DNA of 64,000 bases from Nicotiana tabacum. Taxonomy: Eukaryota > Streptophyta > Magnoliopsida > Solanales > Solanaceae. The stretch spans positions 110,024,289-110,088,288 of the forward strand of contig NC_134081.1 in assembly GCF_000715075.1 (NCBI RefSeq), read 5' to 3'. Of the stretch, positions 24,914-63,455 are shown piece by piece. The notes beneath the pieces are model-generated. The model made no database searches and was not told where the DNA came from. It saw only the letters and a list, made by a program, of their open reading frames with translations. Each line of letters begins with the position of its first letter. Position 1 is the stretch's first letter. The translations under genes and the position numbers were made by a program.

Positions 24914-25823
24914 TGATAGGTTATATGTATCCCTGTTATGTTTTGATGATCTAACAAACTTAATGATAAGAACCAGATAAGGAACCTGTTACACATCCTC
25001 AAGTACTTAAAGAACAACAAGTCTCAAGTCGGGGACATGGTTCAACTCTTTAGAGTCAAAGGAACAACAGAGGGAACATATGGCCACCAGTTCCCTTGGT
25101 GACGGTACAAGTCAACTCCTCACAACTGTAAAGTTGCTGCATGCACATGCAATAGTGCAAAAACAGTGCAGCAGTCAACTTTATAGGGAATGCCCTTTAC
25201 CTAACTTGCTTGCATCATTCAAGTGATGTCACAAATGAATTATTAACATCAAGAAAAGGCAAAACAAAACACTTGCACATTCATAATCGATCAAGCATTT
25301 TCTTAAGTCTGTGTCAATTTTGCAAGTGATTCTAAAGGGCATCAAGAACAAAGAACAACATAACGAAGGACCAGTTTCCTGTATTGAGTCATTACATGTC
25401 CTTAGTTGTGTTGCACCTTTGTTAAAGCACTTTACTTGTAATTCCTACTTAGCTTATTTAGAAGCATTGTGTAGGACATCTTTGTAAAATCATAAGCCTT
25501 ATGTTTGTGTCTTGACTAGAGTTAGTCGAGTTGTAAGTCTTTGTAATAGAGTTATTACAAAGTGGCTTGTAATAGAGTTGTTACAAGTTAGTGAGAGACT
25601 AAGAGGTTAATTCCTAGGTTATAATAGGTTGTAATCTAAAGTTTGCTCAATAATGAAGTTGAAATCCTACAAGGATAGGTCGTAATTTTTAATCCCGTGA
25701 GCTGGAAGTTTTCCACGTAAAATTCCATTGTGTCATTTATTTACTATTGTGTGTGTGCATTTTGAGGGAACTTATAGAGAACCTGGTTCTCTATATAGTT
25801 TGGTGGACCCTTAGTTTTTATCA
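24914..25823 (+). repeat. SIRE 5' LTR
   Basis: 910 bp, beginning TGATAGGTTATATG and ending TTAGTTTTTATCA; the short terminal inverted repeat TGATAGG/CCTATCA is perfect in the 3' LTR and partly mutated here. It contains GAGAACCTGGTTCTC at 25778-25792, one of the palindromes scattered through the element. Confidence 0.92.
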
Positions 25824-27054: not shown

Positions 27055-30000
27055 CAAAGATGGTACATGGATAATGGCTGCTCGAAGCATATGACTGGAA
27101 GCACTAATGATTTTCTTTCACTCAAAGCCCTGCAAGGAGGGAGTGTATCCTTTGGAAATGACAAAAAGGGATACATTCTTGGAGTTGGAAGAATTGGGAA
27201 GTCTCTCACTCACTCAATCGAAAATGTGTATTACGTGAATGGACTGAAGTATAGCTTGCTGAGTGTCTCTCAGATCTGCGACAAAGGCAACAATGTGGAA
27301 TTTGTGTCAAAAATCTACAGTCACAAATCTTGTGACTGGTGATGTGATCTTGATGACAAAAAGATACAAGAACATCTATGTCGCTGATTTTGAGTCACTA
27401 CATAATGGGGATCTCACATGTCTGAGTATTGTGGATGATGATGCTGAACTATGGCACGGAAGGTTGGGCCATGAAAGTTTTACACTGCTGAACAAGTTGG
27501 TCAGGAAGGACCTAGTTCGTGGATTGCCTAAGTCAAGCTTCAAAGATCACAGGGTGTGTGATGCATGTGCAAAAGGAAAGCAGATTAGGTCCTCCTTCAA
27601 ACCCAAATATTAAGTAAGCACCTCAAGGCCACTTGATCTCCTCCATATGGACCTATGCGGACCTATGAGAGTGCCAAGTAGAAGAGGAAATAAGTATTGT
27701 GGATGATTACTCCACGTTCACATGGACCTTGTTCCTCAGAACCAAAGATGAGACTTTTTCAGTGTTTGCTGCCTTTGTCAAAAAGATCTAAGTAAAGATA
27801 AGCCATAATGTTGTGAGTATAAGATCTGATCATGGTACAGAATTTGACAATGCAAAGTTCGACGAGTTCTATGCTGAAAATGGTATAAGTCACAATTTTT
27901 CAGCTCAGGGAACACCTCAACAAAATGGTGTCGTGGAAAGGAAAAATAGAACTCTTAAAGACATAGCTAGGATAATGCTTATTGATAGTGGTGTTACAAA
28001 AGGTTTCTGGGCAGAGGCAGTCAACACTGCATGCTACTTAATGAACAGGTGCATGATCAGGTCCCTCCTAAACAAAACCCCATATGAACTGTTGAATGGG
28101 AGAAAACCTAAGCTAACACACTTGAGGACATTTGGTTGCAAATGCTTTGTCCTCAGTAATGGTAAGGAAGCTCTAAGAAAGTTTGATGCCAAGAGTGATG
28201 AAGGAATATTTCTTGGATATTTATCACAAAGCAAAGCCTACAAGGTATACAACAAAAAAAACTCAATGTGTTGAGGAAAGCATACATGTGATCTTTGAGG
28301 AAGCACAACACCCTCTTGGAAAAGCTGCACATGATAAGGCTGATCAAGATGGAGAGTTATCAAATGTCCTTAGTGAAGTTATTGACATGTCAAATGGAAA
28401 GGCCGATATGATGAGTCAGGTCAAGGAATCAAATGACAATGGCACAGCTGAATCTCCAGCTGACATGGAGAAACCTGGTCCCTCAATCACAATAACTGAA
28501 GTAGAAAACAGAGTTGTGGATGTTGTACATGGAACTCCAGCCATTGAGGTGAGTAACAGGACGTGTGGATCATATACAGAAGAATCTAGAACCTCTCATA
28601 ATGAAATTCAGGTGTCCAACTGGAAGCACAAAAGTGCACACCCTCTTCAAAATATGATCACCCCCCTTGACTCAGGAATTCAAACTAGATCAAAGTCTAG
28701 AAACTCACTTGCCTTCTCTGCATTTCTCTCTCAAATTGAGCCCAAAATTATCAAAGAAGCATTGAAAGATGCTGACTGGATTACGGTTATGCAAGATGAG
28801 CTTCATCAATTTGAGAGGAACAATGTGTGGCACCTGGTTTCTCGACTTGCTGACAGAACTGTCATAGGAACCAGGTGGGTATTTAGAAACAAACTTGATG
28901 AGTTTGGAAACACCACAAGAAATAAGGCAAGGTTAATAGTTCAAGGGTACAATCAAGAAGAAGGAATTAACTATGATGAAACTTTTGCTCCAGTTGCTCG
29001 AATGGAGGCCATTAGAATCCTTATTGCCTTTGCATCTCATATGGAATTCAAATTGTTTCAAATGGATATCAAAAGTGCATTTCTGAATGGCTTTCTTAAA
29101 GAAGAAGTTTTCTCTTAGCAACCGCCTGGTTTCGAGTGCCATGAGCATCCTGAGCACGTGTTTAAACTTGACAAGGTATTATATGGACTGAAGCAGGCTC
29201 CTCATGCATGGTATGAAAGGCTTCCCAAGTTTCTTCTAAAAAATGGCTTTACAAGAGGAAAAATTGACAACACTCTATTTCTGAAGAAAAGGGGGAGGAA
29301 TTTGCTCATAGTGCAAGTCTATGTTGATGACATTATCTTCGGAGCAAAAAACTCTTTGTGTGAGGAATTTGCAAGACTCATGGGAAGTGAGTTTGAAATG
29401 AGCATGATAGGGGAATTGAACTTCTTCTTGGGTCTACAAGTCAAGCAAACTCCTAGGGGAACAATGATAAGTCAGCAAAAGTACATCAAAGAGCTTCTGA
29501 AGATATTGGAGATGGAGAGTTCAAAGATCATTGATACACCTATTGCCACTGTCACTCGCCTGGTTATGGATGAACCCGGTTCTCCTGTAAATGAGACTAT
29601 GTATAGAGGCATTATTGGGTCACTTCTGTATCTCACAGCAAGTAGACCAGACATTGTTTTCAGTGTGGGACTCTGTGCCAGGTTTTAATCCAATCCAAAG
29701 GAGTCTCATCTGAAGGCTGCAAAGAGAATTCTGAGGTATCTCAAAGGAACGTAGGACCTGGTTCTCTACTATCCCTCAGGAGATAACTTTGACTTAATAG
29801 GGTATGTTGATGCTGACTATGCTGGTTATCTGGTGGATAGGAAAAGCACTTCTGGTATGGCATATTTTCTCGGTTCATGTCTAATCTCATGGGGCACAAG
29901 AAAACAAAACACAATGGCCCTTTCAACTGTTGAAGCTGAGTATGTGGAAGCTGCCTCTTGCTGTGGTCAACTATTGTGGATCAAGCAACAGCTAGAAGAT

Positions 30001-30261
30001 TTCGGTGTATTTTCTGATTGTGTGCCCTTACGATGTGACAACACTAGTGCTCTCAACATGGTAAAAAATCCAGTTCAACATAAGAGAATAAAGCATATTG
30101 ATGTGCGAAATCACTTCCTCAGAGACAATATTGAGAAGGGGCTCATCTGCATGAAGTTTTGCAGCACAGAAGATCAAATTGCAGATATCTTCACTAAAGC
30201 ACTGAGCAGAGAGCACTTTGAAAAGAATCTCTTGGCACTAGGGTTGATGAAATCTAGCTAG
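27055..30261 (+). pseudogene. SIRE pol (protease, integrase, RT, RNase H)
   Basis: Protease starts WYMDNGCSKHMTGS; the catalytic Asp is kept but the usual DSG is DNG. A gag-pre-integrase zinc region (LWHGRLGHESF, CDACAKGKQ) spans about 27450-27600. Integrase core: SDHGTEFDNAKFDEFY and GTPQQNGVVERKNRTL (27820-27960); part of the N-terminal core near 27690-27790 is frame-broken. RT runs from [18 protein letters not shown] to VYVDDIIFGA (about 28780-29345), with [11 protein letters not shown]. RNase H includes DADYAGYLVDRKSTSG, VEAEYVEAASCCGQLLW and KHIDVRNHFLRD, ending at TAG 30259. Stops at 29116, 29686 and 29752 interrupt a long, otherwise readable RT-RNase H. Confidence 0.9.
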
Positions 30262-30767
30262 GGACCTGGTCCCTTGATGATTGGCTATGAAAGAAATGTA
30301 CAGGTAAAATAGCTAAAAAAGTATTTCCTGGCAAAGTCTAACTCATCTCTATACCATTGCAGGTAGACACGCATGATGATTATAGAGGAAACAAGTAGCC
30401 AATGATATCGCATTTCAGTCAAAAGGATGAAGTTCACATTTACAAAATCTATCAGGGAACCTGGTTCTTTTGACACAGGTTAGTAGTTCATATGTACTCT
30501 CATCCACATCTTTTTAATGGCTAAAATGGTGCCACATCATTAAAATGTCAATCTTTCCTTTATCTCTCTTTTTGGAACTCAGTGTCCTACCCGTTATGAA
30601 ATGACCCGTCTACCCAACTTGATACCCGTTCCAAACCGATCCCTCACCACTCTTAAATAACCTCTATCACGGTCACTATCATAATTGTCCACATCAAAGC
30701 CAAAAATTCCCTTTTTCCTTCAAACCAAACACTCTCTTCTTCCATCAAACTCTCATTATCCTCCACC

Positions 30768-33180
30768 ATGTCTGAAAATCTGGAGACTCAGATTGTTCCA
30801 AGCTTCGTCCCCACTATGTCATCACCCATTGAAACCCCAGTGCTAGAACCTATAATCCCTATAACATCTAGTCCAAACCCTAAGCTAGAGTCACAACCAC
30901 CTACTCGTTCCTCTCCAAATCAGTCGAGCACTGGCTCTCATAGGAGTCGCAAAACCTCGACTCCCAAGAAATTTGTGGCAGCAACCTCTCTTTCTGTCTC
31001 GTCGGAAAAAATGGTAGAAGTAGATACAGTGGCAAAAAAAGACAATCAGGAAATTTCTAGTCGACCAGTGGAAGAATGTTCTGAGATGCAAGGAGTGGGT
31101 TGTAACAGTAATGAATCAACAAAGACTACCCCAGTTCTTGATTTGAGTGTCGCCGAGTCTACAGGTGATGCTCTTCTTATGTTTTCTGAGTTTACTTTGG
31201 GTTTGCAAGAACAAGAGGCCATAGAGAATATGTTGTCAATCGTTGCCGAGGGCTGTGTAGTTAGTGAGTATAAAGGCATGTCTGAAACAAATAGGTCTAA
31301 GGGGGAAGGTGATAGTCTACTGGTAGAGGGAAGGGAACTAGTGCCTGTCAAAAATCCGGCACCAGACAGTACTACTGGGGAACTTTCTGAGAGACCTGAT
31401 CCCCCCACACAAGAGGAGCACTATAATCCTACTTGGGATGAAACTCCCTGTTCTTCTAAATAACCCCAGGTCAATACTGATCCCGCTCCCTCTCCTCATT
31501 TCTATGCTGAGCCATTGGCCATTGTTCCTCCCGAGATGAGATCTTTGTCTGAGGAGGAAAATGAAGGGAGTGAAGATGACTATGACAATGTGGCTCTTGC
31601 GAGCTTCATCAGGGTTAGGAGTAGTCAGGAAAATCCCCAAGAGTCAACTTCTAAGAGACCTATCACTAGGTTGCAGAAGAAGGAAGAACTTGAGTCTGTT
31701 TTAAGGAAAAACAAAAAAGCAAAAGAAGAAGAGGAGATTGGTGAAAGATGGAAAGGTTGTAAATGAGAAGGTGGTGCCTCCTACACTAGTTGTTGATGTT
31801 GATGATGAGGTAGAAGAGGAACCTGGTTCCTTGGTTCGTAAGTCCTCAAAGAAACTTACTGTTCCAAAGTCCAAAAGGGAGTCATCTGTGAGTGAAATGG
31901 ACTTGAGCAAGGTTGAGGGTGAAAAATCTTGTGAGAAAGTAGCTGAGAAATCTGGTGAGAGGGTGGTTGAGGAGTCTGGGAAGAAAGTGACTGAAGAGTT
32001 AGTTGAACAAGTGTCTGAGAAAATGATGTCTGAGAAATCTGCTGAGAAAAGAAAAAGTGCAAGACAATCAGTGAAAAGGAAGTCTAGTGCCAGTGAAGAA
32101 CCCGGTTCCTCCAAGAAGGCCAAGGTTGGTGCAACCCAGGATGCTAGAAGGGAAACAACTGAGAATCCAAAAAGTACTGTGGGGCCATACATTTGCCCCT
32201 AATATTCTGGATATGTCAGGAATGCGCCAATTGGGGGAGATTTGTGAATTCCAACAGTGGACACATCTGTTCACAACTGACAATCCCAAGGTATATGAGG
32301 CAGAAGTGCGTAGTTTCTATGTTGACTTCTTCACAGTTGAGGATGATAACATTTGTCAGAAAGTGAACAGTGTTGATTTTGTGATGGACACTACTGTACT
32401 GGGCGCTATTTTGGGCGTGCCCACTGATGGGATGTCCTCCATTGAGGGGGTATGCTCTACAAATTTTAGAAACTCCATTGTGAAGGATAAGGCAGTACAG
32501 CAAGAGTAACGGGTACACAAGAAGGCCTTCTAGTGTACCAACTGCTATTCAAAATGGTGAACAAAGTTCTGCTCCCACGTGCTGAAAGACGCTCTATTAC
32601 ATCACGAGCAGACTTGGTTCTCATGGAAGCACTAGATGGCTACACCACTATAAACCTGTCTGGTTTTATGATAGAGCACATAAAAAAAGTAACAGAGTTC
32701 AAGGAAGGTAATCATGGGTTGCCTTACGGGTTTCTCCTCACTAAAGTATTTGAATTCTTCAAGGTTCCTTTGGGACAGGCTAAAGCTGGAATTCGCAAGC
32801 AATATTTCTCCAAAACCACCCTTGAAGAGTGTGAGTGCATTGATAGGAGTGGAGGGGTTGGCAGTAATTCAACCATTTCTTAGCTGATCAACGCTCAAAT
32901 AGTGCGACTAAAGAAATAAGGAACCTGAAGGCTCGGAATTCCATTCTTGAAGGTCAGCTCAGTCAGACCCAGGAGGCAGCTAGTTCGAGTAGTGCCCAAA
33001 ACACTGATGATGCCCGCCTGACAAAGGAAAATGTTGCTCTCAGGAAATAGGTTGTGGACCTGAAGGAAAGGTTGCTAACCGAGAAAGGGTCTGCAAATGA
33101 TCGTATGGACATCCTTCTTAGAACCCTTGCCTCTTCATCTTCCTCTGCCTCCAGTTCTCCCCCTTCCAGTGCTCCTTAAT
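30768..33180 (+). pseudogene. SIRE extra 3' ORF ('envelope-like' position)
   Basis: The ORF starts MSENLETQIVPSFVP, 0.5 kb after RNase H. The first third is Pro/Ser/Thr-rich. The middle is Lys/Glu-rich with repeated EKxxEKSxE-like units (about 31900-32070). The third part is a compact domain (SGMRQLGEICEFQQW, FFTVEDDNICQKVNSVDF, then GLPYGFLLTKVFEFFKV) that I recall as a plant-transposon-protein type. The end is a coiled coil (VRLKKEIRNLKARNSILEGQ) and a Ser/Pro tail before TAA at 33178. Frames change near 31735, 32190 and 32530, and a TAA lies at 31461. I see no convincing signal peptide or membrane anchor, so an envelope role is unsupported; its function is unknown. Confidence 0.75.
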
Positions 33181-33589: not shown

Positions 33590-34499
33590 TGATAGGTTAT
33601 ATGTATCCCTATTATGTTTTGATGATCTAACAAACTTAATGATAAGAACCAGATAAGGAACCTGTTACACATCCTCAAGTACTTAAAGAACAACAAGTCT
33701 CAAGTCGGGGACGTGGTTCAACTCTTCAGAGTCAAAGGAACAACAGAGGGAACAGATGGCCACCAATTCCCTTGGTTACGGTACAAGTCAACTCCTCACA
33801 ACTGTATAGTTGCTGCCTGCACACGCAACAATGCAAAAACAGTGCAGCAGTCAACTTTATAGGGAATGCCCTTTACCTAACTTGCTTGCATCATTCAAGT
33901 GATGTCACAAATGAATTATTAACATCAAGCAAAGGCAAAACAAAACACTTGCACATTCAGAATCGATCAAGCATTCTCTCAAGTCTGTGTCAATCTTGCA
34001 AGTGATTCTCAAGGGCATCAAGAACAAAGAACAACATAACGAATGACCAGTTTCCTGTATTGAGTCATTACATGTCCTTAGTTGTGTTGCACCTTTGTTA
34101 AAGCACTTTACTTGTAATTCCTACTTAGCTTAGTTAGAAGCATTGTGTAGGAAATCTTTGTAAAATCATAAGCCTTGTGTTTGTGTCTTGGCTAGAGTTA
34201 GTTGAGTTGTAAGTCTTTGTAATAGAGTTATTACAAAGTGCCTTGTAATAGAGTTGTTACAAATTAGTGAGTGATTAATAGGTTAATTCCTAGGTTACAA
34301 TAGGTTGTAATCTAAAGTTTGCTTAGTAGTGAAGTTGAAATCCTACAAGGGTAGGTCGTGATTTTTAATCCCGTGAGCTGGGAGTTTTTCACGTAAAATT
34401 CCATTGTGTCATTTACTTACTGCTGTGTGCGTGTGTTTTGTGGGAACTTATAGAGAATATGGTTCTCTACATAGTTTGGTGGACCCTTAGTTCCTATCA
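33590..34499 (+). repeat. SIRE 3' LTR
   Basis: 910 bp, the same length as the 5' LTR, beginning TGATAGGTTATATG and ending TTCCTATCA. The duplication ATATC follows, and then the CCT exon of copy B resumes. Confidence 0.92.
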
Positions 34500-35112
34500 A
34501 TATCTTATTTGCTTACTAAACCCGAGTCATAAAAGATGAATAATAACATTAACATGTAAATGAGAAGTCATGAGTTACATGAAATAACACTTCTTCTGAA
34601 AATAATGACTCATCTAATTGACATAATGGAAAAGTCATTATTTTCATTTTTTATGTTCTTACAAAAGATAAAGAGTTAAGCCTAAGATGCATGCTATCGC
34701 TGAATAGTATGATCTTCTTATGTTCTGGTTTTCTTTTTCTCGTTATATCTCATCTTGGCTTTCTCCCTTTGTGATCGATTACTAGTTTATGTATCCAAGT
34801 TAAACTCCCATGGTGATTCAGCAGTCAGAAAGGAGGCCGGCGACAATCCACAGTCTTTACAATCTGTTGTTGCACTACTTTCTCCTGTGATGTTGGAGAG
34901 TGACAATGAAATACTTGAATGAACTGGTCCAAGTGGTAATGCTAAACCTATGCTTATATTGCAACCGGAATTCATAAGCCTAGAATTGGTTGTGGCACTC
35001 ATTGTCTGCAACAGATTCAGTGAACTAACTGCTGCAACCATTTGTGATGATCGATTTCCTATACGTTGTTTCTGTCCTAAATATGATTCCTAGAAAAATA
35101 CAATATCATAAT

Positions 35113-35850
35113 TGTTTGACCAAAAATATAAATCTTGGTTCAAATAATTAAATTTATATAAACAAAGGTTAATCCTAGTTAATAATAATATCCTTAGATC
35201 TTAATATTAGAAAAAGCAATTGATAGGTGTTCATGCGGACAGTAAAGTCACCACGTGATAAATACTCTGAAAAATCAAGAATAGTGGTGTAGCATATAAT
35301 ATTTGATGGGAAATAATAAATGGTATTTAAGTAGATAAGGGGAATGATTCAATCAATAAAAGGTGGAATAAATGAACCTTCCGCCTTACAATAATTGAAA
35401 GACAAATCCTTGAATAATCGGGGATTTCTCGGATCTGATTGTAAAGTGTAGATAAACATTTCAGTGAAAAGTAGATCTTTGTATCGAGTGATGACCGAAT
35501 TTTTTTGTCAAAGTGATTTTCTTACAAAATGAATGCCCCCCCCCCCTTTCTATCATTGTTTTTTATTCTATTTATATGGGATATACTTCCAAGAAACCCT
35601 AAAGTACAAGTGCAGAGAATATCCAAGGGAATTCTTTGTTTGATATCATATCTTGAAAACTAGTCGTTACAGCTCAATTGAACGTACTCGACCTCGACCT
35701 CGACCTAAATCCTTTTTGACACCTTGACTATGACTTTCATCAACTCTTCAACCGTGGGTCGTGCGGCTTCTCGTAATAAGTGACAACTTGAGGATTCTTT
35801 ATGTAATGTTATCTCGCCCTGAATACAATGGTCGGATTTTGACTAATACA
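35113..35850 (-). repeat. Tat-2 3' LTR
   Basis: 738 bp, TGTTTGACC...GACTAATACA, collinear with 51531-52298. Read on the minus strand it is preceded by the polypurine tract GCGGAGGGACTAAC (35851-35864). Confidence 0.9.
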
Positions 35851-36204: not shown

Positions 36205-36221
36205 ATCCTTATAAATGAGGA
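36205..36221 (+). promoter_or_regulatory. Candidate TATA box of Tat-2 antisense gene
   Basis: ATCCTTATAAATGAGGA contains TATAAAT at 36210-36216, about 179 bp before the ATG at 36389. The Tat-1 counterpart (TCCTTGTAAATAGG) and the NA-Tat antisense gene (CTTATATATACTTC) have related sequences at similar places. That it works as a promoter is an inference. Confidence 0.5.
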
Positions 36222-36388
36222 TATGATGGTGTAATTTCAATGTTTACATATTTCCTATATCGAAACCCTATATCCTCTTCCTTTTTTTCTATTATTGTGC
36301 ATATTTCCCCTCTATTCCAGCGATTCTCGTCATTTTTAATCCTCCGTTGTTTGGTACCTCTCTCTCTCTCTCTCTCTCTTGTTGAAAC

Positions 36389-39241
36389 ATGTCAAACGTA
36401 CCTTCTGAGTCCAGCGAGTGAAGTGACGTGGTCAGTCTAGAGATGGTATTTCCCCCCTCATGCGGAGAACGTTCCCGCTACCATCGAGGATGGAAGCTTC
36501 CCAATGGTGGAGGAGATAGTTCCTCGTAACCCCAATACCAGGTCTGATTTCTCGAAATTGCCTGAAGCCGAGCTCAGAACCTTTAGATCAGCGATGAAGT
36601 AGGCCGATTTGGTATAGCTTAAGGCTAAATATGGCCTTCCCAATCACATCGAGTTGATCCCTGCCGAGTGGGATGCGGTGCAGGTCCACCGTCTTGGGTA
36701 ATGAGCCTTCTATGCCTACCCCTTTCATGTTGGCTACACTTTTCCTCTCCTTCCGGTGGCGGAGGAGTTTTGTCGCTTGTACAGTGTTTTCCCGGCTCGG
36801 CACGTGTCGTATATTTACAAAATCTTAAGGATGTTCACCAAATTTGCGGAGCTGGCCGGGGTCGAGCTCACACTTCAACATTTGACGCACATGTTCTCCC
36901 CCAGCTTTTATAGGGGGACGATGCTGAATCTTCGCCACCGAGGAGGTAAATGCTTTGTGGTGATGATGGACGACAAAGCTAACCGCCAATTTTGGTTTAA
37001 CCTTTTCTTTGTTAGAACTGAGGATGTGGTGGCCAACGCCGATGGTTTCCTTGAGGCTTGGAATTATACTCGTAAGTACACACTTCTTTGTTTGTAGGTA
37101 TCCAATTTTTCCTTCATGTTTGGATGTGGTTCTAATCTCATGTCCCTTCTTGTGCAGCTACACATTTGCCTCCCCCTTTTGTCGATGATATTTCTGACTG
37201 GGTGAGTCTGCTCCTTCCTCACATCGTGGGGATACACGAGTGGTTAGGCTTCTTCAAAAGGTTTGGGCCCCATCTCCCTTCGACTGGTAAGTTTTTCCTG
37301 TCTTCGGCCTCTTAGTTATTTCTCTTTTTTGGTTTACTTTGGCTGACTTTCTTTTCCCTTTGTAAATCCCTTAACTTCAGCTAGGGGGTCCTCGAAGAGG
37401 TCGAGAGCTCCCACACCTACATTCCGATCGCTAAGGCCTCGCCTTCTGCCCCCTCCTTGACTGTGTGCACCTCGGCTCGTGTCCCAATTTCTTCTTCGAT
37501 CGTGGCTGCCTCTGCTCGCGCCCTATTGGTGCATCTTGTTCTACTCCTTCCTCGGCCATGGGAACCTCGACCTCTTTATCAAACCGTCTTAAAGACGAAG
37601 ATGAGGAAGAGCTTGTACCTGGTGAGAAAGATTTGATGCCTCGCAAGAGGAGGTCTGTAGATACTGGTGATGGGGTCTCCCGGGATGTTGACTTAATGGA
37701 GGGTGATTTTACGTTGTGCGAGACAGCGACCATTGTCATCAGAAATGACGTCGGGCCGGTATCTTAGATTCCGAAATTGGTAGAGGCCGACGTAGGTATG
37801 TCTCTTCCTTCTGTGATGATGGAGGTTGAAGGGCCAGCCACTGGAGTTTTCGACACTTCACGGCAAGAGGAGTCGTCGACTTCGCGGCCAGCTGATGATA
37901 CTTATTTTCTAGCCGATGAGAGACGCAAAGGCATTGTTGAAGAAGGCTATGAGATGGGTCAGATGTTAGTGTTGGTGACCTGAAGATGATGGAGGAATGG
38001 TTTACCCAAATTGAGGTAAGGTTGGAGGGGTCTATGAGGACCATTGCGATCCCTATGGATGGTGATTTGCTGAAGAATGCAGAGAACGTAGTCCCCAGCC
38101 TTGGCCCCCTTTGTTCCCAGATAGAGGGTAAGACCGTTAAAGAGTTGGATGACGATACTCTGTCGAGGAGCATTATTGGTATTGCCCTTAGAGTAAGTGT
38201 TTAATGTTTTGTTTTTCTCTTCTTTTTGCCTTCGTTTTTCGGGGAGTTTTCGTTTCTTACTCCCTTCTTTTCTTTTTCTGATCGCAGACGGTGATTTTGG
38301 AGATCGAGAACGCCCGAAGGGAGGAGAGGCATTGGGAAATTTTTGTAAGGTTGAAAAAAAAGTACTTTGAGTATCGACGCAAGTACCGGGAATTTTGCCG
38401 GTGACTTAATGAGGGTAGCAACATGCAAGCCCTTCAGGATAAGTTGAAGGAGAAAGATGATGAGCTGGTAAAGGCCATTGAGAAGTGCAGCATCCTCGAG
38501 GGGAAGTTGAGGAGTCGTGAAGAGGATCTTAAGGTTAGCAGGGGCGTGCAGGCCCAATGCAATGATCTTCAAGCACAAGTGGTCGAATTGTGCAGGCAAT
38601 TGGACGAAAGTCAGCTTCAACTGGAGGGCCTCAATGGTGAAGCTGCTGAGAATCAGAGCGAGCTTGAGAAGGCAGAATCTTTCCATTTGGACGCTAAAAG
38701 GAAGTTGGAAATGCTTGAGCTAGCGAACAGCACTCTCTGGGCCGAGTGGGAAAATGACTAGTCCACGGAGAAAGCTAATGAGGATCGACTAGTGGGGAGG
38801 GTCGGAGAGCTGGAGAAGGATAACGCTCTCCTTCATGATCGGGTGGTCGCATTGGAAGCTAAAAAGGCTCAACTGCTCGCGCAACCCTCTTCTTCTCATA
38901 CTTCGAAATTTCCCAGTATTCCTCGAGAATTGTATGAGGAATGGATTCACATCGAGGCTCAGCTGGATGTGTATCAATATTTGCATAAGGTGGGGTTCGT
39001 TTCTGAGGTCACCCTCGAGGATGTTCATGTTAAGGCTCGTGAAGCTCTAAATGCTTGTGGGTATGATCCCGCCACACCTGAGGGCGATAATGAAGGCGTA
39101 GATTGGTTCGAAGAGGATTCTTGGTACGACACTGCTTATCTTGAGGGCGAGGACAGCGAAGGTGGAAGTGATCGAGGTGGCGAGGGTATTGTTGGCCAAG
39201 GCGGTGAAGGCGCAGAAGATCATGATGGTGGTGATCTATAG
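36389..39241 (+). pseudogene. Tat-2 antisense additional gene (aORF), spliced
   Basis: Coded opposite to gag-pol. Exons: 36389-37071, 37158-37286, 37381-38192, 38288-39241. The introns are short and have GTAAGT donors and CAG acceptors (TTGTGCAG, AACTTCAG, GATCGCAG). Junction phases join into one frame: EAWNYT, then PTHLPPPFVDDISDWV, then ARGSSKRSRAPTPT. Exon 1 holds YPFHVGYTFPLLPVAEEFCR; exon 3 is acidic; exon 4 is a coiled coil (VELCRQLDESQLQLEGLNG) with a Gly/Glu/Asp-rich end (VGQGGEGAEDHDGGDL). Damage: TGA at 36419, an extra C near 36450, TAG at 36600, and further breaks in exons 1 and 3. The cellular role is unknown; the coiled coil suggests self-association. Confidence 0.82.
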
Positions 39242-39481: not shown

Positions 39482-39885
39482 CGGTCAAGGGCCGATAGGT
39501 GTTTGTTCGAGTGAGGTCGAACATAATGTTGCAGCCGAGGGCCGGTAGGTGTTGGTTCGAGCAAGGTCGACCATAACCTGAATTTATTTATGGCTGAGGG
39601 TCGGTAGGTATTAGTTCAAGCAAGGTATCGTAACCTAAATTTAGTTATGGCCGAGGGCCGGTAGGTGTTAGTTCGAGCAAGATCGCACATAACCTGAATT
39701 TAATTATGGTCGAGGGCCGGTAGATGTTAGTTCGAGAAAGGTCAAACATAACCTGAATTTAATTATGGCCGAGGGCCAGTAGTTGTTAGTTCGAGCAAGG
39801 TCGAACATAACCTGATATTAATTATGGCCGAGGGCTAGTAGGTGTTAGTTCGAGCAAGGTTGAACATAACCTGAATGCGAGAAAA
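39482..39885 (+). repeat. 59-bp tandem repeats between Tat-2 antisense gene and pol
   Basis: Seven units marked GAGGGCCGGTAGGTGTTAG begin near 39489, 39539, 39598, 39655, 39714, 39773 and 39832; the spacing is 59 bp except for 50 and 57 at the start. They occupy the same convergent zone as the four units of Tat-1. Confidence 0.88.
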
Positions 39886-40269
39886 ATGTGCTGATAAGTG
39901 TAAAGTTTATTGCCTTGACATTGTTGCGTTTGTTACATACTTGGAGAAATTTATAGATTTTTGGGTGTAAGTTGGCATTCCAGTCCCGATCTATCTAGTC
40001 CCTTCATTGGTCGATCTGGAGAATAGTGAGAGGCCGAGCAATGAAATAGTAACCATGACCTTGCCTTCACATACTTCGACTTGGAGAGTTCCCTTCGTCA
40101 CCTCGTTAAAAACCTCCTTGAGAAAACCCAACTGGGACAAAACTCAAGTGACGGAAAAAAGAGTATGACTTGGGGGAAGCTTTTTCTCTTAGAAGTTGAA
40201 ATATTTGAGGTGGATGATATTCCAGTTGTCTGGTAGTAGCTTTCCTTCCATTGTTTCTAGTTGAACTGA
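39886..40269 (-). other. Tat-2 3' untranslated region of pol, no gene
   Basis: Collinear with 16522-16928 of Tat-1, including TTGAGAAAACCCAACTGGG. No open frame of note. Confidence 0.5.
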
Positions 40270-41350
40270 TCATTTATTTGCTTTTGCTGTGATTTTGTAC
40301 AGACCGTCCCAATTTGTTCCTAGCTTGCCTTCCCTGAGATCTTTACTCGCTTGAGTTTTAGCTTTCAGGACGTAGTTCCCGACTTTGAGCGGCCTGACCT
40401 TTGCTTTCTTGTTATAATATCGTTCTGCTTGTTGTTTTTGGGCGATCATTCTTATATAGGCCATATCTCTTCGTTCATCGACTTCGTCGAGTTCTTGCCT
40501 TCTTCTCTCGTTGTTGCTTGCTCTGCTATCAGGGAGTACCTTAGGCTGGGATCTCCGACCTCTACTGGTATTACTACCTCAATCTCGTATACCAAATAAT
40601 AGGGCGTCTCTCCTATGCTCAGTTTTGGAGTTGTTTGGTAGGCCCACAATACTTCTGGTAGTACTTTCGTCCACAGTCCCTTGGCGTCCTCAGGCTTCTT
40701 CTTTATGATATTTAGTATCGATTTTTTGGAGGACTCTGCTTGCCCGTTGCTTGCGGGGTGGTACGGGGTTGAGAGTATCCTTTTGATATGTCATTTCTCA
40801 AAATATTTGGCAGTTTTCTTTCCTATGAACTGGGGTCCGTTGTCGCAGCTAATTTCTTTAGGGAGGCCGAACCGGCATATGATATTTCTCTATATAAAGT
40901 TGATTACCTCTTGTTCCCGTATTTGTGCGAACGCTCCTGCTTCCACCTACTTAGAGAAATAGTCAGTTAAAACCAAAGGTAATCGTACATTACCCCCGCC
41001 CTGCTGGGAGGGGGCCCACGATGTCCATTCCACATTAGATGAATGGCCAAGGTGAGGTGACCGATTGGAGATGTCCGCCTGCTTGGTGAATCATTAGGGA
41101 TTACTTTTAGCGTTGTTCGCATCTTTTTACGAAGTCTACAACCTCCTTTTTCATGGTGGGCTAGTAATATCCTGCCCTTATGAGGCATCTGACCAGTACT
41201 CGGTTGCCGGAATGAGCTCCGCAATGGCCTTCGTGGACTTCTTCAAGGACGCGTGGAGTTTGGTTTGGGCCCAGACACTTCGCTAAAGGGCCGCCATAAG
41301 TTCTCTTATACAGGTTGTTGTGGAGGATATTATATCTGGCCGCTTACATT
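40270..41350 (-). pseudogene. Tat-2 integrase
   Basis: Same domain as in Tat-1, more decayed. The C-terminal part is readable (ERYYNKKAKVRPLKVGNYVL) and is preceded by VWAYQTTPKLSIGETPYYLV of the late core. The zinc-binding and early core regions (about 40800-41300) are recognisable only piecemeal across stops and small deletions. Confidence 0.8.
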
Positions 41351-41929: not shown

Positions 41930-42935
41930 TCCCTTTCGACTTCAGGCATTATTTTTTAGCGCTAAAGTCGGCGACGAAATCAGGGAGCACTTGTGACTTT
42001 ATTGCCGTTCGCGGCTGGTACGTGATATCGTGCTCGCTTAGCTCGATAGACCATTTGGCCAGCCTTCCCAATAGCTCGAGTTTATGCAAAATGCCTCTTA
42101 GGGGGAAGGTCGTGACGACCGAGATGGGGTGACATTAAAAATACGGTCTAAGCTTTCGTGAAGCTACGACTAAGGCCAAAGCCAATTTTTTGAGGTATGG
42201 GTACCTCATCTCGGCGTCGACGAGTGTTTTGTTAATGTAATAGATGGGAGATTGTGTACCTTTGTTTTCTCGAAGTCATACTATGCTTACGGCTACCTCG
42301 GATACGTCCAGATAGATGAGGAGATGCTCCCCGGGCTCAAGTTTTAAAAGCAGAGGCGGCGGTGATAGGTATGCTTTTAGTTCTCGCATAGATTGGATGC
42401 ACTCGAAAGTCCATTCGAGGTCTTTGTCTTTCTTGAATACGCCAAAGAATTTATGGCATCTATCCGATGACCCGAGATTAACCTTGATAGGGTGGTGATG
42501 CGACCAGTGAACCTTTGGACCTGTTTTTTGGTTGTCAAGAGTTTTGGTATCCCCTCGATGGCTTTGATTTGGTCTGGGTTGACCTCAATCCCTCGTTGTG
42601 ATACATTAAAACCTAGGAACTTTCCCAAGGTTACACCGAACGAACATTTCTCTAGGTTTAGCCTCATTTCGTACCGTCTGAGTATGTCGAAAGTTTCTTT
42701 CAAATGATCGATATGATCTTCTCCCCTTTTTGACTTAACCAGCATGTCATTTATATATACCTCCATTGTTTTTACCGAGATGATCTTTGAACATCTTTGT
42801 TACCAACCGTTGATAAGTAGCCCCTGCGTTCTTTAGTTCAAATGGCATGACCATGTAGCAATACATTCCTTGGTGGGTGATGAACGGAGTTTGTTCCTGA
42901 TATTCCTCTTCCATGAGGATATGATTATAGCATGA
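41930..42935 (-). pseudogene. Tat-2 RT (C-terminal part) and first RNase H
   Basis: The part of RT that follows the Athila-like insertion in element sense. It has VYINDMLVKSKRGEDH (about 42730-42766; the usual YIDD reads YIND, losing a catalytic Asp), then FNVSQRGIEVNPDQIKAIEG, then RNase H remnants to about 41930 with several stops. Confidence 0.82.
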
Positions 42936-45469: not shown

Positions 45470-47055
45470 GTACTCGCTCTCATTCGATCCTCCTTTCTCG
45501 AAGTGCCCTCCTTCTTCTTTTTTTCAGCTCCCTTCTTGCCTTTCTTCTTCTTATCAACTTCATTTTTCAGCTGCTCCTCAACTTCTTTTTCAGGTACACT
45601 CACTTGTTGGACAGGCGGGATCTTTCAACACTTGCTCGCTTCTCAAGTTTATAGTGTTCATTGTTTCTTTGGGGTTTCTTTCAGTATCAGCTGGCAGAGT
45701 ACCAGAGATTCTCTCTGATAATACAGTGGCAATTTGCCCCACTTGCTTCTCTAAGTTTTGTAACCCTGTGCCAAGTTCTTTGATAGCAGCACCATTAGTA
45801 TCTAGCCTCTCATCCGTCTTGACAATGAAGGACATCATTAGATCTTCTAACCCAGACTGAATTGGCTATTGAGGCTGAAACTGTGGCCTCAGCTGATTCA
45901 CAAAGCCAGGAGGTCCTTGAAATTTGGGATTATTTTGTTGCCATGCATTTGCAATACCCCCAGGTGAACTCCATGAAAAAATGGGGTGCTTCTGACCCAT
46001 TGCATTGAATTTATAATTCCCGACAGCATTAACTTCCTCGATTGAGGCTTGACACTCATGAGTAGGGTGTCCTCTTCTACATATGTCACATGCTGCATGA
46101 TTCTCGCTCTGTATTGAAGCTAAGGTCAGCTTCCCTATCTCTTTTGCCATAGTATCAAGTTGTACCTGCACAAATGTGTTAGCATCAACCTGGTGAACAC
46201 CATTCGCCCTTCTTCTTTCAGCACTTTCAGAGGGACACTGATTTGCGTCTTCAGATAACTCATTTAGAATTGTGACTATCTCCTTTGGAGTCTTCTTCAT
46301 CAACGGACCTCCAGCTGCGTTGCTCAATGTTCTGCATGAGGCCGGTGTCAATCCATCCCAAAAATCCTGGGGTTGCATCCAGAGTTCAATTCCACTATGT
46401 TGACACTTTCGAATTATCTCTTTAAACCTCTCCCAAGCTTCAAACACAGTTTCAGTCTCGTTCTAGCAAAAGTTATAGATTTCTCTTCTAAACTTGCCTG
46501 TATTAGCAGATGAGAAATATTTGTCAAGAAATTTTCTAGTCATCTCATCCCATATTCTAATTGATCCATTAGGAAAGCTTCAAAGCCAGTGCTTTGCATC
46601 GTCTTTGAGTGTGAAGGGGAATGCCCTTAAGTAGACTGCATCTTGTGACACACCATTAAATTTAAAGGTGTTCATAATCTCCTCGAAGTCCATCAGATGA
46701 TTGTTTGGATCTCCATTCATCTTTCCTCTGAAGATACAACTGTTTGAAGAGTTTGGAGCAACCCTTGCTTCAGCTCAAAATTATTAGCTGCAACTGGAGG
46801 TGGTTTCACACTTGATAAGCCTTGGTTGTAGACCAGTCTAGCATAATCGCCCAGTGGTCTCCCAACATCGGGAGCTATATTTCCGAATTGGTCTGCACCC
46901 AAAGGTTGATTCTGAACAATTCTCCAAGCCCTTTCCTCCTCGTAGACAAGTTGTGCATTTCGAAGAGTTGTATCCTCAGCATCTCGTACAGCTTTTTCTC
47001 TTTGTTGGGATGCCTCTCTTGCAGCCAAATCAACATTATCATCATCTCCCGCCAT
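45470..47055 (-). pseudogene. Athila-like gag
   Basis: Structural protein. It starts MAGDDDNVDLAAREASQQRE. A middle part reads AFPFTLKDDAKHWLRSFPNG and FLDKYFSSANTGKFRREI, then ETVFEAWERFKEIIRKCQ, an Athila-type gag pattern. A zinc knuckle CDICRRGHPTHEC lies near 46050-46090. Breaks: a frame change near 46716, a TAG at 46463-46465 where Gln is expected, and a frame change near 45600. Confidence 0.83.
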
Positions 47056-51509: not shown

Positions 51510-51530
51510 CAGCGCCAAATTATTTGACCA
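51510..51530 (-). other. Tat-2 primer binding site
   Basis: Minus strand next to the 5' LTR: ATTTGGCGCTGTCTGTGGGGA, the TTTGGCGC...GGGGA pattern used by Tat elements. Confidence 0.78.
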
Positions 51531-52298
51531 AAAATATAAATCTTGATTCAAATAATGAAATTTAAATAAACAAAGGTTAATCCTAGTTAATAATAATATC
51601 CTTAGATCTTAATATTATAAAAAGAAATTGATAGGTGTTCATGCGGACAGTAAAGACACCACGTGATAAATACTCTGAAAAATCAAGAACAGTGGTGTAG
51701 CATATAATATTCGATAGGCAATAATAAATGGCATTTAAATAGATAAGGGAAATGATTCAATCAATAAAGGTGGAATAAATGAACCTTCTGTCTGATAATG
51801 ATTGAAAGATAAATCCTTGAATAATCAAGGATTCTCGAATCTGATGGTAAAGTGTAGATAAGAATTTCACTGAAAAGTAGATCTTTCTATCGAGTGAAGA
51901 CCGAATCTTTTTGTAAAAGTGCTTTTCTTACAAAATGAATGTCACCTCTTCTATCATTGTTTCTTATTCTATTTATATGGGATATACTTCCAAGAAACCC
52001 TAAAAGTACAAGTGCAGAGAATATCCAAGGGAATATTCTCTTTGATATCCTATCTTGAAAACTAGCCGTTACAGCTCTATTGAACGTACTCGACCTCGAT
52101 CTCAATCATTGTTGACATCTTGACTACGACTATCATCGACTCTTCGACCGCTAGCCGTGCGGATTCTCGAACCATCTTAATACGTCGACCGCTGGCCGTG
52201 CGGCTTCTCAAACCATCTTAATAAGTGACAACTTGAGGATTCTTCCAGTAATGCTATCTCGCCCTGAATATTCTCAGGGCGTAATTTTGACCCATACA
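51531..52298 (-). repeat. Tat-2 5' LTR
   Basis: 768 bp. A short local duplication near 52135-52215 (GACCGCTAGCCGTGCGG and GACCGCTGGCCGTGCGG) makes it longer than the 3' LTR. The plus-strand start is TATTTGACC instead of TGTTTGACC. Confidence 0.88.
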
Positions 52299-53992: not shown

Positions 53993-54649
53993 TGTATTAG
54001 CGGAAAAAGACAATACATGTGGACTATCAATAAGCTGACGGGGCATGGTATGTGGAACATCGATGAAAGGACAAGTGGCGTTCTTAATTAGGCGAGTTAA
54101 AGAATGCGGAAAAGGCACGAGAGAAACTCCCACGGGGTTACACTGAGGAAATAATCGGACCTGGCAGATGTAAAAGGAGAAACATGAACGAAATGAATAA
54201 AGGCTGTGAAGAAGGGAAGATACACAAACCTGTCATAAATAAGTAAGGGAAATTGGTGCAACAACAAGAAATCTTTAATCATAAATATTTTTATTACGGC
54301 TGTACATGGTAACGGGCAATCAAGACAATTAATATCATTAGTGAGCCCAAATTAAATAAGGGAACCGTTACAATTGTATGCTCCTATATAAGAATTGAAA
54401 TCTCATTTGTAATGGCAAGAAATAATTATTATTGAAATTTATAGAGCTATTCTTTGCTTTACTCTCAAAAGTTCTAAGCCAAATTTTGGGAGTGATTATC
54501 AGTTTATTTCATATTTTCTTTGTCAATTATTTTCATTCCTTGATCTATTCTTTCAAATTGTTAGGAAAGTGAAGTAAATCTTGGCTACCAGTAGCCCGAT
54601 TTCTTCTAGATATTGAATTTGACCGAAAAATCTATTTTTGGATTAAACA
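53993..54649 (+). repeat. NA-Tat 5' LTR
   Basis: 657 bp, TGTATTAGCGGAAAAAGAC...TTTTGGATTAAACA, with a TATA box CTCCTATATAAG at about 54381-54392. Confidence 0.88.
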
Positions 54650-54672
54650 GATTGGTTCCGTTACCGAAAATC
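54650..54672 (+). other. NA-Tat primer binding site
   Basis: GATTGGTTCCGTTACCGAAA follows the LTR. It resembles TTGGCGCCGTTGCCGGGAA with several transitions, so it is probably a decayed site of that type. Confidence 0.6.
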
Positions 54673-54710: not shown

Positions 54711-56365
54711 ATGTCAACTGTTAACGACAACAACCAGCTGAACCAACAAGGTACAACTCCACCATACCACACACCTATGGGATCCCCTCAACAGTCCTAT
54801 GGAAGTTCGCCTGAAAGATCTACTTCACGTACTGATGATCAGCAGGGAAACGACCAAACCGTGGAGCAAGATGCTCTAAAGCAATTGATTGCAGAACACG
54901 TGAATAATGCACTACAAGATTTTGTTAAGGGATTACCCAATGCGGCGCAAACTCCTCCACTAGTTAATACAACAACTTTGGAGAACCCGCGTTCAGGGCT
55001 TGATAATTCTGGAAGTAGAGAAAATTCTAGTGAATCTTATGATGGAGGGTTAAGTACTCCAAATAATTCTAATTTACAAAGTTTAGTGCTAACTTTGCAG
55101 AAACAGTTGAAGGAACAGAATGATCTTATAGAGCAGATACTAGGTATACCACCCATAATCAAAGGGGTGGATATTGACAAGTATTCACAACAACCCTGGA
55201 AGCCAAGTGTGGTACCTTTACCAATTTTTAAAAGTTTAAAATGCCTAATATTCCCAAATATGACGGAACAACTAACCCTCGAGATCACATAACTGCGTTC
55301 ACTACTGGTGTGAAAGGCAATGACTTAACCAAACAGGAAATCGAATCGGTTTTAGTTAAAACATTTGATGAAACACTCACAAAGAGAGCGTTAATGTGGT
55401 ATTCTCTTTTACCCAAAAATTCTATTGATTATTTTACTGAGCTTGCACATTCACTTATAAAAGCACATTCGGGGGCTCAAAAAGTTAAAAAAATGATGGA
55501 ATACATCTTTAAGGTTAAACAAGAGAGTACAGAATTGCTTATGGAATTCGTAGATAGATTCCAGCTAGAGAGGATGATGTTACCTTGAGTACCTGATAAT
55601 TGGGCGGCTATGGCATTCGTGAGCAACTTGAACGAGAAAAGTTCAGAAGCCACGAGGAGGCAGAAAGAAAGTTTGCGAGAATTTCCAACAACAACTTAGA
55701 ACGATGTGTACAACAGGTACAGTACAAAGTTGCGGATATAAGAAGATATGGTCGCACAGCCAAGGGCCGATGAGAGGCCAGGATCGAGACGTTCAGAATC
55801 AGAAAGAAGGCCCGGTAAAAATAGCTATGAGCCGTACATGGGACCCGCAGGGCGAGACTCTCGATCTAAACAGGAGAGTGCATGATTCGATTCAAGACTA
55901 AGACAAAAAGACACGAGTTCTTCATCTAAGTTCAAAAAGGAACGAGATGCCCAAAGCAACGATTCCAATACGCAAGCAAGAATATGAGATTACAGTTTTA
56001 ACATCAGTACCTCCGAGTTAGTAGCTGTTTTAAGAGGTATGGGGGATAAGGTGCGATGACCTAAAGAAATGATATCAGATCCAAGCAAAAGAAATCCAGA
56101 TTTCTGGTGCGAATTTCATAACGATCATGGCCATAGAATAATAGATTGTAGGCTTCTGCAAGGAGAGGTCGAGCATTTGTTGAAGCAGGGTTATCTTACC
56201 GATCTGTTCAGTGAGAAAGGAAGACAATCATACATGAAGAACAGACAAAAACCCCAAAAACCTCCATCACCAAAAAGAACAGCCAACGTAATAACTGGGG
56301 GAGATGAGGTCAATGGAGTAACATATACAGCCGCAAAAAAGACATCAAAAGTCACGGTCTATTAA
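54711..56365 (+). pseudogene. NA-Tat gag
   Basis: It starts MSTVNDNNQLNQQGTTPPYH. A coiled coil (LQSLVLTLQKQLKEQNDLIE) precedes the capsid: MPNIPKYDGTTNPRDHITAF and KRALMWYSLLPKNSIDYFTE. A zinc-knuckle-like CEFHNDHGHRIIDC is at about 56105-56150. It stops at 56365 after KKTSKVTVY, just where the linker into protease would begin in a complete Tat element, so the pol deletion starts here. Breaks: a frame change near 55240, a TGA at 55586, and others to 56060. Confidence 0.85.
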
Positions 56366-59435: not shown

Positions 59436-59452
59436 TGAAGTATATATAAGGA
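59436..59452 (-). promoter_or_regulatory. Candidate TATA box of NA-Tat antisense gene
   Basis: Minus strand CTCCTTATATATACTTC lies about 100 bp before the antisense start codon. It resembles TCCTTATAAATGAGG upstream of the Tat-2 antisense gene. Activity is inferred. Confidence 0.45.
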
Positions 59453-59734: not shown

Positions 59735-60386
59735 TGTATTGGTGGAAAAAGACATTACATGTGGACTATCAATAAGCTGACGGGGCATGGTATGTGGAAC
59801 ATCGATGTAAGGACAAGTGGTGTTCTTAATAGACGAGTTAAAGAATGCGAAAAAGGCACAAAAGAAATACCCACGGGGTTACACTGAGGAAAAAAACGGA
59901 CCTGACAGATGAAAGGAGAAATAGAAAAAATGAATAAAGACTGTGAAGAAGTGAAGATACACCAACCGGTCATAAATAAGTAAGGGAAATCGGTGCAGTT
60001 ACAAGGAATCTTTAATCATAAATGTTTCCATTACGGTTGTACATGGTAACAGGCAATCAAGGCAATTAATATCGTTAGTGATCCCAAATTAAGTAAAGGA
60101 ACCGTTACAATTGTATGCTCCTATATAAGGAATGAAATCTCATTCGTAATGGAAAGAAACTATTATTATTGAAATTTATACAGCTATTCTTTGCTTTACT
60201 CTCAAATTTCTAAGTTGTAATTTTGGGAGTGATTATCTGTTCATTTCATATTTTCTTTGTCAATTATTTTTATTCCTTGATCTATTTTTTCAAATTTTTG
60301 GGAAAGTAAAGTAAATCTTGGTTATCAGTAGCCCGATTCCTTCTGGATATTGACTTTGACCGAGAAATCTATTTTTGGGTTAAATA
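59735..60386 (+). repeat. NA-Tat 3' LTR
   Basis: 652 bp, collinear with the 5' LTR, with its own CTCCTATATAAGG TATA box (about 60119-60131). A GACAT duplication follows. Confidence 0.88.
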
Positions 60387-60426
60387 GACATAAAATAACT
60401 ATATTAAAAATTACGCAATTTGACTA

Positions 60427-62880: not shown

Positions 62881-63455
62881 CCAAACAAGAGGAACCTCAG
62901 TGTGTCATCAACATGATCATTGGTAGAGTCGACGTTCCCCATAGACCAATGCTAAAGCGCACCAAGGTGTTTATCACAAGAGAAAAACGAACCCAAGATT
63001 ATATCTCGGAGGGAACCATTTCGTTCAATGATGAGGACGTCGAAGGCATCGTAGAACCGCATAGTGATGGACTAGTAATATTCATACTTATAAATAAATC
63101 TCAAGTTAAACATGTGTTGATTGATCCAGGTAGCTCAGCCAACATCATCAGATCGAGGATCGTAGAACAGTTAGGTCTACAAGACCAAATAGTGCCAACA
63201 GTTCGAGTTCAAAATAGATTCAACATGGCATGCAAAACTACCAAAGGAGAAATAACCCTGCCAGTAAATACTACCGGGACAGTTCAAGATACCAAATTTT
63301 ACGTGATCGAGGGAGACATGAGGTATAGCGCCTTATTTAGAAGGCCTTGGGTTCACAACATGAGAGCAGTACCCTCGACACTACACCAGGCACTAAATTT
63401 CCCCACTCCGGGAGGAATCAAGACGGTCTACGGAGAGCAGCCGGCCGCAAAATAA
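62881..63455 (+). pseudogene. Tat-3 aspartic protease
   Basis: VLIDPGSSANIIRSRIVEQL carries an intact D-P-G-S catalytic motif in a 299-codon open frame (62556-63455) that also holds the end of gag. It is followed by TKGEITLPVNTTGTVQDTKF and a late motif ALFRRPWVHNM (the usual LGRPW-type reads FRRPW). The frame itself is unbroken here. Confidence 0.85.

Follow-up and report, generated by a model that had tools for sequence, protein, structure and literature searches.

An intron-bearing gene antisense to gag-pol is shared by two diverged families of Tat/Retand-like retrotransposons in tobacco

Background

Retand elements are known to carry, between pol and the 3' long terminal repeat (LTR), antisense open reading frames (ORFs) with a Transposase_28 domain (TRP28; PF04195) (Vicient 2025, PMC11963269). 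We describe here a gene of this kind in a 64,000-nucleotide stretch of the Nicotiana tabacum genome (contig NC_134081.1, positions 110,024,289 to 110,088,288; hereafter the window), where it lies opposite to gag-pol in three LTR retrotransposons, Tat-1, Tat-2 and NA-Tat. So far as the accessible part of that paper describes the TRP28 ORFs, the present gene is like them in place, strand and domain, in having tandem repeats nearby and in that some of the elements are non-autonomous. Introns set it apart: in the same accessible part the string 'intron' does not occur and 'splic' occurs twice, both times in the references, and its main text has no occurrence of 'Nicotiana' or 'Solan'. The survey used ORF Finder, with which a four-exon gene would surface only partly. 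The first-pass annotation of the window had stated that antisense ORFs in Tat elements were already known, and the paper bears this out; conserved introns within them are the possible new part, for which priority is not settled. We found no report of conserved introns in an antisense Transposase_28 gene in the literature searched, a search of titles and abstract openings that misses most subscription papers, and the accessible parts of PMC11728184, PMC7730604 and PMC3091746 contain nothing on introns in the antisense gene.

The gene23 of maize Grande, which we liken to the present gene by description and not by sequence comparison, is also antisense, has its own promoter and encodes a nuclear protein, according to the accessible text of PMC7264820. 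Functional introns in plant LTR elements have a precedent in Ogre and EVADE, named as notable intron-bearing exceptions in the available part of PMC12786077; that of PMC6317226 mentions an intron for Ogre only. As described there, those introns belong to the sense strand, where they aid the expression of gag-pol, whereas the introns considered here lie on the antisense strand. Ogre keeps its sense intron by partial splicing, and antisense placement is one way among others to retain introns. A retroviral parallel, HBZ of human T-cell leukemia virus type 1 (HTLV-1), is spliced and has a coiled-coil (bZIP) region. Like the present gene it is antisense to gag-pol, and it is nuclear (via the accessible part of PMC11963269); the analogy is one of logic only. 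The HTLV antisense promoter lies within the 3' LTR (PMC7264820, accessible text), whereas the TATA box described below lies about 440 bp inside of the LTR.

Structure of the antisense gene

In Tat-2, whose sense genes occupy the minus strand of the window, the antisense gene begins about 600 bp inside of the 3' LTR (35110-35773, minus strand; 5' LTR at 51518-52169, identity 89.5%) and heads toward pol on the plus strand. A TATA box (TATAAAT, 36210-36216) precedes exon 1 (36389-37071), which encodes a low-complexity N-terminus followed by the Transposase_28-like domain and is broken upstream of 36705 by what appear by eye to be stops and a frameshift. There follow intron 1 (37072-37157), exon 2 (37158-37286, 129 nt), intron 2 (37287-37380), exon 3 (37381-38192, with a basic start and then a linker), intron 3 (38193-38287) and exon 4 (38288-39241), which encodes a coiled coil and an acidic aromatic tail and ends in a TAG stop at 39239-39241. 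All three introns have GT at the start and AG at the end, at precisely the positions given in the first-pass annotation, and their phases are 1, 1 and 0. As it also said, intron 1 interrupts the codon after WNYT behind its first base, C; the CT at the start of exon 2 completes a P, which is followed by T.

The same arrangement is found on the plus strand in Tat-1: exon 1 (13171-13852, without an ATG and with a stop codon at 13381-13383), intron 1 (13853-13939), exon 2 (13940-14068), intron 2 (14069-14161), exon 3 (14162-14975), intron 3 (14976-15070) and exon 4 (15071-16032, its frame broken at several points). From 14226 in exon 3, 253 open codons run into intron 3. Introns 2 and 3 have both GT and AG, as had been claimed of all the introns; the acceptor of intron 1 has decayed to AA.

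NA-Tat carries the gene on the minus strand, with a TATA box at 59441-59448 (TATATATA in the window copy), exon 1 at 58498-59333 (frameshifted in this copy), intron 1 at 58437-58497 (phase 1), exon 2 at 58332-58436 (105 nt here, about 43 codons in several sister copies), intron 2 at 58253-58331 (phase 1), exon 3 at 57568-58252 (its frame interrupted), intron 3 probably at 57483-57567 (phase 0 judging by the frame) and exon 4, with a coiled coil, at 56772-57482. The start codon is at 59333 and not at 59342 as previously placed; the proposed end at 56736 could not be confirmed, the open coiled-coil frame stopping at 56772. Exon 2 does begin with P-T across intron 1 (58497-58437, then C|CA ACC). 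The EKWNFA reported ahead of this intron is found in the frame of most other copies; in the window copy an extra A stands before WNFA. Likewise, the motif YPF-x13-EFC occurs in all three elements, and the Q described after it occurs in Tat-1 and NA-Tat and is missing from Tat-2. By eye, all three window copies of the gene are decayed.

Conservation of promoter, start codon and splice sites

The comparison covers 40 Tat-family copies, of which two lie in the window and 38 elsewhere in the genome (several of the 40 are shortened), and 30 copies of the NA-Tat (NA) family. The sets derive from the best 40 of 1516 and the best 40 of 1634 candidates, respectively, and so sample the closest copies. 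The motif TATAWA stands at 36210 in 35 of the 40 Tat copies, and in none of the 40 in each of eight neighboring 40-nt tiles; in the NA family it stands at 59448-59441 in 27 of 30 copies, the other four tiles giving 0, 1, 0 and 0. The TATA match noticed in the first pass is thus real and conserved. The ATG is kept in 34 of the 40 Tat copies.

With gaps excluded, GT and AG are retained in 36/40 and 33/39 Tat copies at intron 1, 35/39 and 27/39 at intron 2, and 28/38 and 30/38 at intron 3, whereas intron dinucleotides in general match Tat-2 at a mean rate of 0.55, 0.58 and 0.48 in the three introns. The NA figures, which include copies with unrelated sequence around intron 3, are 24/29 and 28/30 at intron 1, 26/30 and 28/29 at intron 2, and 24/27 for the donor of intron 3. 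For the acceptor of that intron, AG is present in 25/30 copies at 57483 versus 22/29 at the alternative site, 57491; we prefer 57483, which would keep the coiled-coil frame, whereas 57491 would reach a stop. Intron lengths vary freely, between 69 and 87, 58 and 95, and 0 and 159 nt in Tat copies and between 49 and 80, 39 and 91, and 4 and 104 nt in NA copies. The zero-length intron 3 of two Tat copies and the short NA values for intron 3 are attributed to truncation or replacement of those copies.

A third, more distant set was obtained with protein P0008 as the query, scoring the best 150 of 14217 candidates. It was read by eye at intron 1 only, in 18 places chosen among those listed without inner stops: GT is present in 15 of the 16 places that include the donor, and AG in 15 of 18. 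Precise loss of intron 1 or 2 was not seen among the aligned Tat and NA copies, nor was precise intron loss found on individual reading of five loci in the genome at which a junction seemed to be bridged; in one of these (L108), exon 3 has lost its start together with most of intron 2. Few introns are expected in retroelements, since every cycle goes through RNA. Three introns conserved in most copies (sets of 40, 30 and 18, the last at intron 1 only) indicate that the choice of strand can evade this rule, and they suggest that surveys listing uninterrupted ORFs alone would find the gene in fragments.

One gene in two diverged families

Exon-1 profiles were built from 30 Tat and 27 NA copies with an open frame of their own of at least 100 and at least 90 codons, respectively. 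They align with an hhalign probability of 99.0 (E 2e-18), and the alignment terminates at WN[CYF]T versus WNFA, that is, at the donor of intron 1. The first-pass annotation had asked for profile similarity between the two proteins and had claimed an intron position common to diverged elements; both are found here. Reciprocal hmmsearch of the exon-1 sets gave E-values down to 1e-20 for 27 to 30 sequences, the Tat profile finding 17 of the 27 NA pieces. Exon 2 and the final 64 codons of exon 3 align as well, each in register with its intron (zero offset), although the match is weak in both cases (E 0.018 and hhalign probability 2.5; E 0.01 and probability 4.0). Four other exon pairings gave E-values of 0.1 to 0.6; among them, the exon 4 profiles failed to align, and the two families' coiled coils resemble each other in character only. 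Identity between the families is 40 to 56% in integrase-like pieces and 25 to 30% in exon 1 of the antisense protein. Two diverged Tat/Retand families thus share one antisense gene, in which a TATA box precedes the start codon and three introns of GT-AG type follow, intron 3 of NA-Tat being deduced from its frame.

Selection on the joined reading frame

We counted as informative those sites with a second base in at least four copies, which mostly predate insertion. At codon positions 1, 2 and 3 their numbers in the Tat family are 80/56/135 in exon 1, 16/16/31 in exon 2, 163/130/203 in exon 3 and 188/145/240 in exon 4. Singletons show the opposite pattern (54/67/26, 11/9/4, 33/46/14 and 14/34/4), their low count at position 3 being due in part to informative sites already occupying those positions. 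Old variation is therefore enriched at third positions in all four Tat exons. The NA counts, for which the frame is set by a guide copy, are 44/40/68 in exon 1 (p 8e-4) and 67/53/81 in exon 3 (p 9e-3); exon 4 gives p 0.012-0.015 with two guides, the row of guide L034, which has unrelated sequence there, being excluded.

The ratio of nonsynonymous to synonymous substitution rates (dN/dS), from pairs with dS above 0.3 that are not independent and with guide copies chosen for open frames, is 0.26, 0.35 and 0.28 in Tat exons 1, 3 and 4, versus 0.73 to 0.94 in the other forward frames. The NA values are 0.37 in exon 1 (other forward frames 0.63 to 0.79) and 0.54 in exon 3 (0.66 to 0.74). In the seven exons tested, with the guide copy excluded, stop codons make up 0.6 to 2.1% of the gene frame versus 1.1 to 11.4% of the other five frames, and the gene frame has the fewest stops in all seven. 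The joined reading frame is thus under purifying selection in the Tat family and, more weakly, in NA exons 1, 3 and 4, in line with the dN/dS check that the first-pass annotation had proposed.

Evidence for splicing

Annotations for Nicotiana tomentosiformis, N. sylvestris and N. tabacum include relatives of the antisense gene. The query with NA exon 1 returned 18 protein relatives, seven of them annotated Nicotiana proteins, and all seven go directly from WNF[AE] to PTM at junction 1; five of the seven also cross junction 2 as predicted. Counting the one annotated relative from the Tat-2 query, seven of eight cross junction 1. Such gene models may be pure predictions.

A second kind of evidence is P0027, an assembled sequence contiguous across junctions 1 and 2. 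The genome locus L103 (L103 1-1101; C18:155119280-155120380) encodes it in three pieces (residues 4-47 at 100%, 46-92 at 96% and 92-279 at 100%) parted by GT...AG introns at the two junctions, and 17 of the first 20 genome matches of P0027 start at residue 90-92, which is junction 2. For the NA-Tat family, then, there is sequence without introns 1 and 2. P0025 likewise crosses junction 1. P0018 and P0019, which share the source tag lgn with P0025 and P0027, continue into the intron; this source therefore seems not to splice in silico, and we infer that P0027 is spliced RNA. Intron 3 has no support of the P0027 kind. None of the three results that the first-pass annotation named as refuting it has emerged: profile similarity and purifying selection are present, and P0027, as read here, speaks for splicing. 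The exact junctions are now available for comparison with RNA data.

The predicted protein

The first half of the protein matches Transposase_28 (PF04195) just under the gathering score, with a best value of 24.2 bits versus 26.2 (E 4e-05) in the NA-Tat sister copy L027. Seven of ten further proteins score 13.9 to 20.9 bits, and three have no match at E 0.1; the antisense protein would be a diverged relative of Transposase_28 rather than a clear member. Exon 3 bears basic clusters, as read by eye. A C-terminal coiled coil, previously claimed for all three elements, is supported in Tat-2 (38405-38758) and NA-Tat, where the heptad score was reached by 13 and 12 of 500 shuffles, respectively; a short Tat-1 piece gave 463 of 500, and the rest of Tat-2 exon 4 gave 427 of 500. 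At its C-terminus (39085-39190), the Tat-2 protein has an acidic stretch with aromatic residues (SWYDTAYLEGED); the tail around WYDTAY is found in 16 of the 40 Tat copies, shortened copies being among the misses. Stretches of this type resemble acidic activation domains.

Wider searches added little. The only match among solved structures is not meaningful (E 0.39), none of 100 pattern matches in viral contigs is a relative, and an X-padded exon-1 query for long proteins gave 1217 candidates, none of them significant.

A possible nuclear regulator and its alternatives

We propose that these elements carry, on the antisense strand, a protein-coding gene transcribed by RNA polymerase II that lies between pol and the 3' LTR and has its own TATA box and start codon, four exons and three introns. 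The element would be copied through its sense RNA, in which the introns read CT...AC and would go unrecognized; by established splicing logic, they may persist through retrotransposition because the sense genomic RNA shows no splice signals for them. Less certainly, the protein, with its Transposase_28-like domain, basic clusters, coiled coil and acidic aromatic tail, would act in the nucleus and regulate the transcription or life cycle of its own element, following a logic like that of HBZ. DNA binding is predicted for the Transposase_28 domain in other plants (PMC11963269, accessible part). Taken as a whole, a spliced antisense gene that persists opposite the genomic RNA and encodes a nuclear regulator is in our view the probable explanation; if the gene is real, the chances that its protein is a nuclear regulator of the element appear about even. 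More tentatively, the gene may throughout Retand be ancient and intron-bearing, have its own promoter, predate the split of the families, keep its introns opposite the genomic RNA and encode a needed nuclear regulator. If so, it would have been acquired as DNA or by antisense read-through of a gene and not from a spliced mRNA, which bears on the open question of the origin of the Transposase_28 gene.

Several observations weigh against this proposal. The case for splicing draws on assembled sequence and gene models rather than on mapped reads; the lgn tag is assumed to denote assemblies of public reads, and P0027 might conceivably be an intronless DNA copy. It supports the NA-Tat family, and no spliced Tat-2-family sequence was found among the protein relatives; the only annotated relative from the Tat-2 query, P0004 of N. 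tomentosiformis, exits the exon-1 frame before junction 1. Beyond junction 1, the models P0020 and P0021 take other junctions, P0020 using neither candidate acceptor of intron 3. As to selection, NA exon 2 has no codon-position signal (11/5/5), and the contrast in dN/dS between gene frame and other frames is small in the NA family, where the best opposite-strand frame gives 0.41 in exon 1 and 0.62 in exon 3. In the Tat family, values nearly as low as those of the gene frame (0.35, 0.44 and 0.35 in exons 1, 3 and 4) come from the opposite-strand frame with the same third positions; the strand assignment therefore rests also on stops and open frames. Nuclear action is suggested by published Grande data and the character of the sequence only, and two AlphaFold predictions have low confidence (predicted local distance difference test scores of 44.1 and 52.6), with no fold backing DNA binding.

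Among the alternatives, the one that survives best accepts the spliced antisense gene and assigns its protein another place of action: the particle, the import of the integration complex into the nucleus, or the suppression of RNA silencing. Selection shows that the protein has a function without saying which, a coiled coil fits assembly, and a role in nuclear entry is discussed in the accessible text of PMC7264820. We consider this unlikely, though by no means negligible: a promoter of its own and an RNA apart from gag-pol would disfavor a stoichiometric particle protein, and the basic clusters, as judged by eye, point to the nucleus.

It is a good deal less probable that the antisense RNA is itself the functional product, pairing with the genomic RNA and feeding small-RNA regulation, with the reading frame secondary. 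The accessible text of PMC7264820 raises this possibility alongside a protein role, and conservation of the TATA box would agree with it. However, codon-position bias and a dN/dS of 0.26 to 0.35 fall on the spliced frame, while the introns vary in sequence and length.

The spliced copies could also be host-adopted genes that no longer belong to an element, in which case their splicing would be uninformative about it. The annotated Nicotiana proteins do bear 'uncharacterized' names, and the 3.5 kb past the gene at L103 yielded neither an integrase-like match nor a frame of 90 codons. Yet the gene at L103 is antisense to an NA-Tat-like element, with the upstream region kept and an LTR piece retained, and host take-over would leave the splice sites and the selection across tens of element copies unexplained; we regard it as very improbable. 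Apart from this question, L103 is a locus whose product occurs as an assembled sequence, and annotated 'uncharacterized' Nicotiana proteins of this type look like element genes. Some proteins so named should, with due caution, be taken as products of this element gene.

That the introns are chance GT-AG pairs within an unspliced antisense ORF, as single-copy ORFs running through an intron (P0010, P0011) might suggest, is hardly credible given introns that have no codon signal in the Tat copies and lie at homologous positions in diverged families, and it is contradicted by the gene models and by P0027, if the latter derives from RNA.

The elements and their surroundings

The elements of the window probably belong to the Tat/Retand lineage of Ty3/gypsy, although this is not proven. 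Tat-1, whose LTR pair is 91.1% identical, matches RT_RNaseH, RT_RNaseH_2 and RVT_3/RNase_H in Pfam, that is, an RNase H of the reverse transcriptase type plus another RNase H-like domain, the latter being presumably a mark of the Tat/Retand clade. Its integrase-like matches end near 16850 on the minus strand. In Tat-2, the reverse transcriptase is an RVT_1 match at 42380-42799, and integrase-like matches occupy 40192-40829 on the minus strand, their end nearest to the antisense gene being at about 40192. As expected of the lineage, pol and the 3' LTR are far apart, with the antisense ORF in the intervening region (36389-39241 in Tat-2). Directly downstream of the gene in Tat-2 is a tandem repeat of period 59 (39515-39866); Retand elements have been described with tandem repeat arrays (PMC11963269, accessible part).

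NA-Tat is bounded by a 5' LTR at 53993-54651 and a 3' LTR at 59735-60388 (plus strand; identity 89.5%). Its internal region contains a gag piece (55232-55585, Retrotrans_gag E 3e-07), gag-like frames recognized by eye and the antisense gene; pol was not seen there. The description of NA-Tat as non-autonomous holds for the window copy. For the family, the next 1.9 kb was examined in eight sister copies. Homology to the window ends at 56364 in six of them, one had no match and one matched the gene end only; past that point, integrase-like frames of at least 75 codons are visible by eye in five of the six (L079 to L083, not L084). The piece from L080 matches SH3_Tf2-1, an SH3 domain of integrase type, below the Pfam cut-off (E 3e-05), that from L082 has no Pfam match, and both match Tat-1 and Tat-2 between the reverse transcriptase and the antisense gene. 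We therefore rejected a non-autonomous family: most likely, the window copy has lost pol and its family retains it. The breakpoint at 56364 falls directly after gag-like sequence, the remainder consisting of gag and the antisense gene.

Other features of the window lie outside the antisense gene. Between 42772 and 48870, the spacing of corresponding Tat-1 and Tat-2 pieces grows by about 5.65 kb, which corresponds to a nested insertion in Tat-2; it includes an ORF resembling gag (45869-46462; Retrotrans_gag at E 0.001, short of the cut-off). A direct repeat (24914-25213 and 33590-33889, 96% identical and 8676 bases apart) flanks long plus-strand ORFs at 27792-32883 and resembles a younger LTR element. 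Retrotrans_gag (E 1e-12) and ORFs weakly resembling an aspartic protease occur at the window's right end (62001-63455, plus strand). Finally, an inverted repeat at 7084-7202 and 7648-7766 has 119-nt arms that are 94% complementary, with 445 nt between them.

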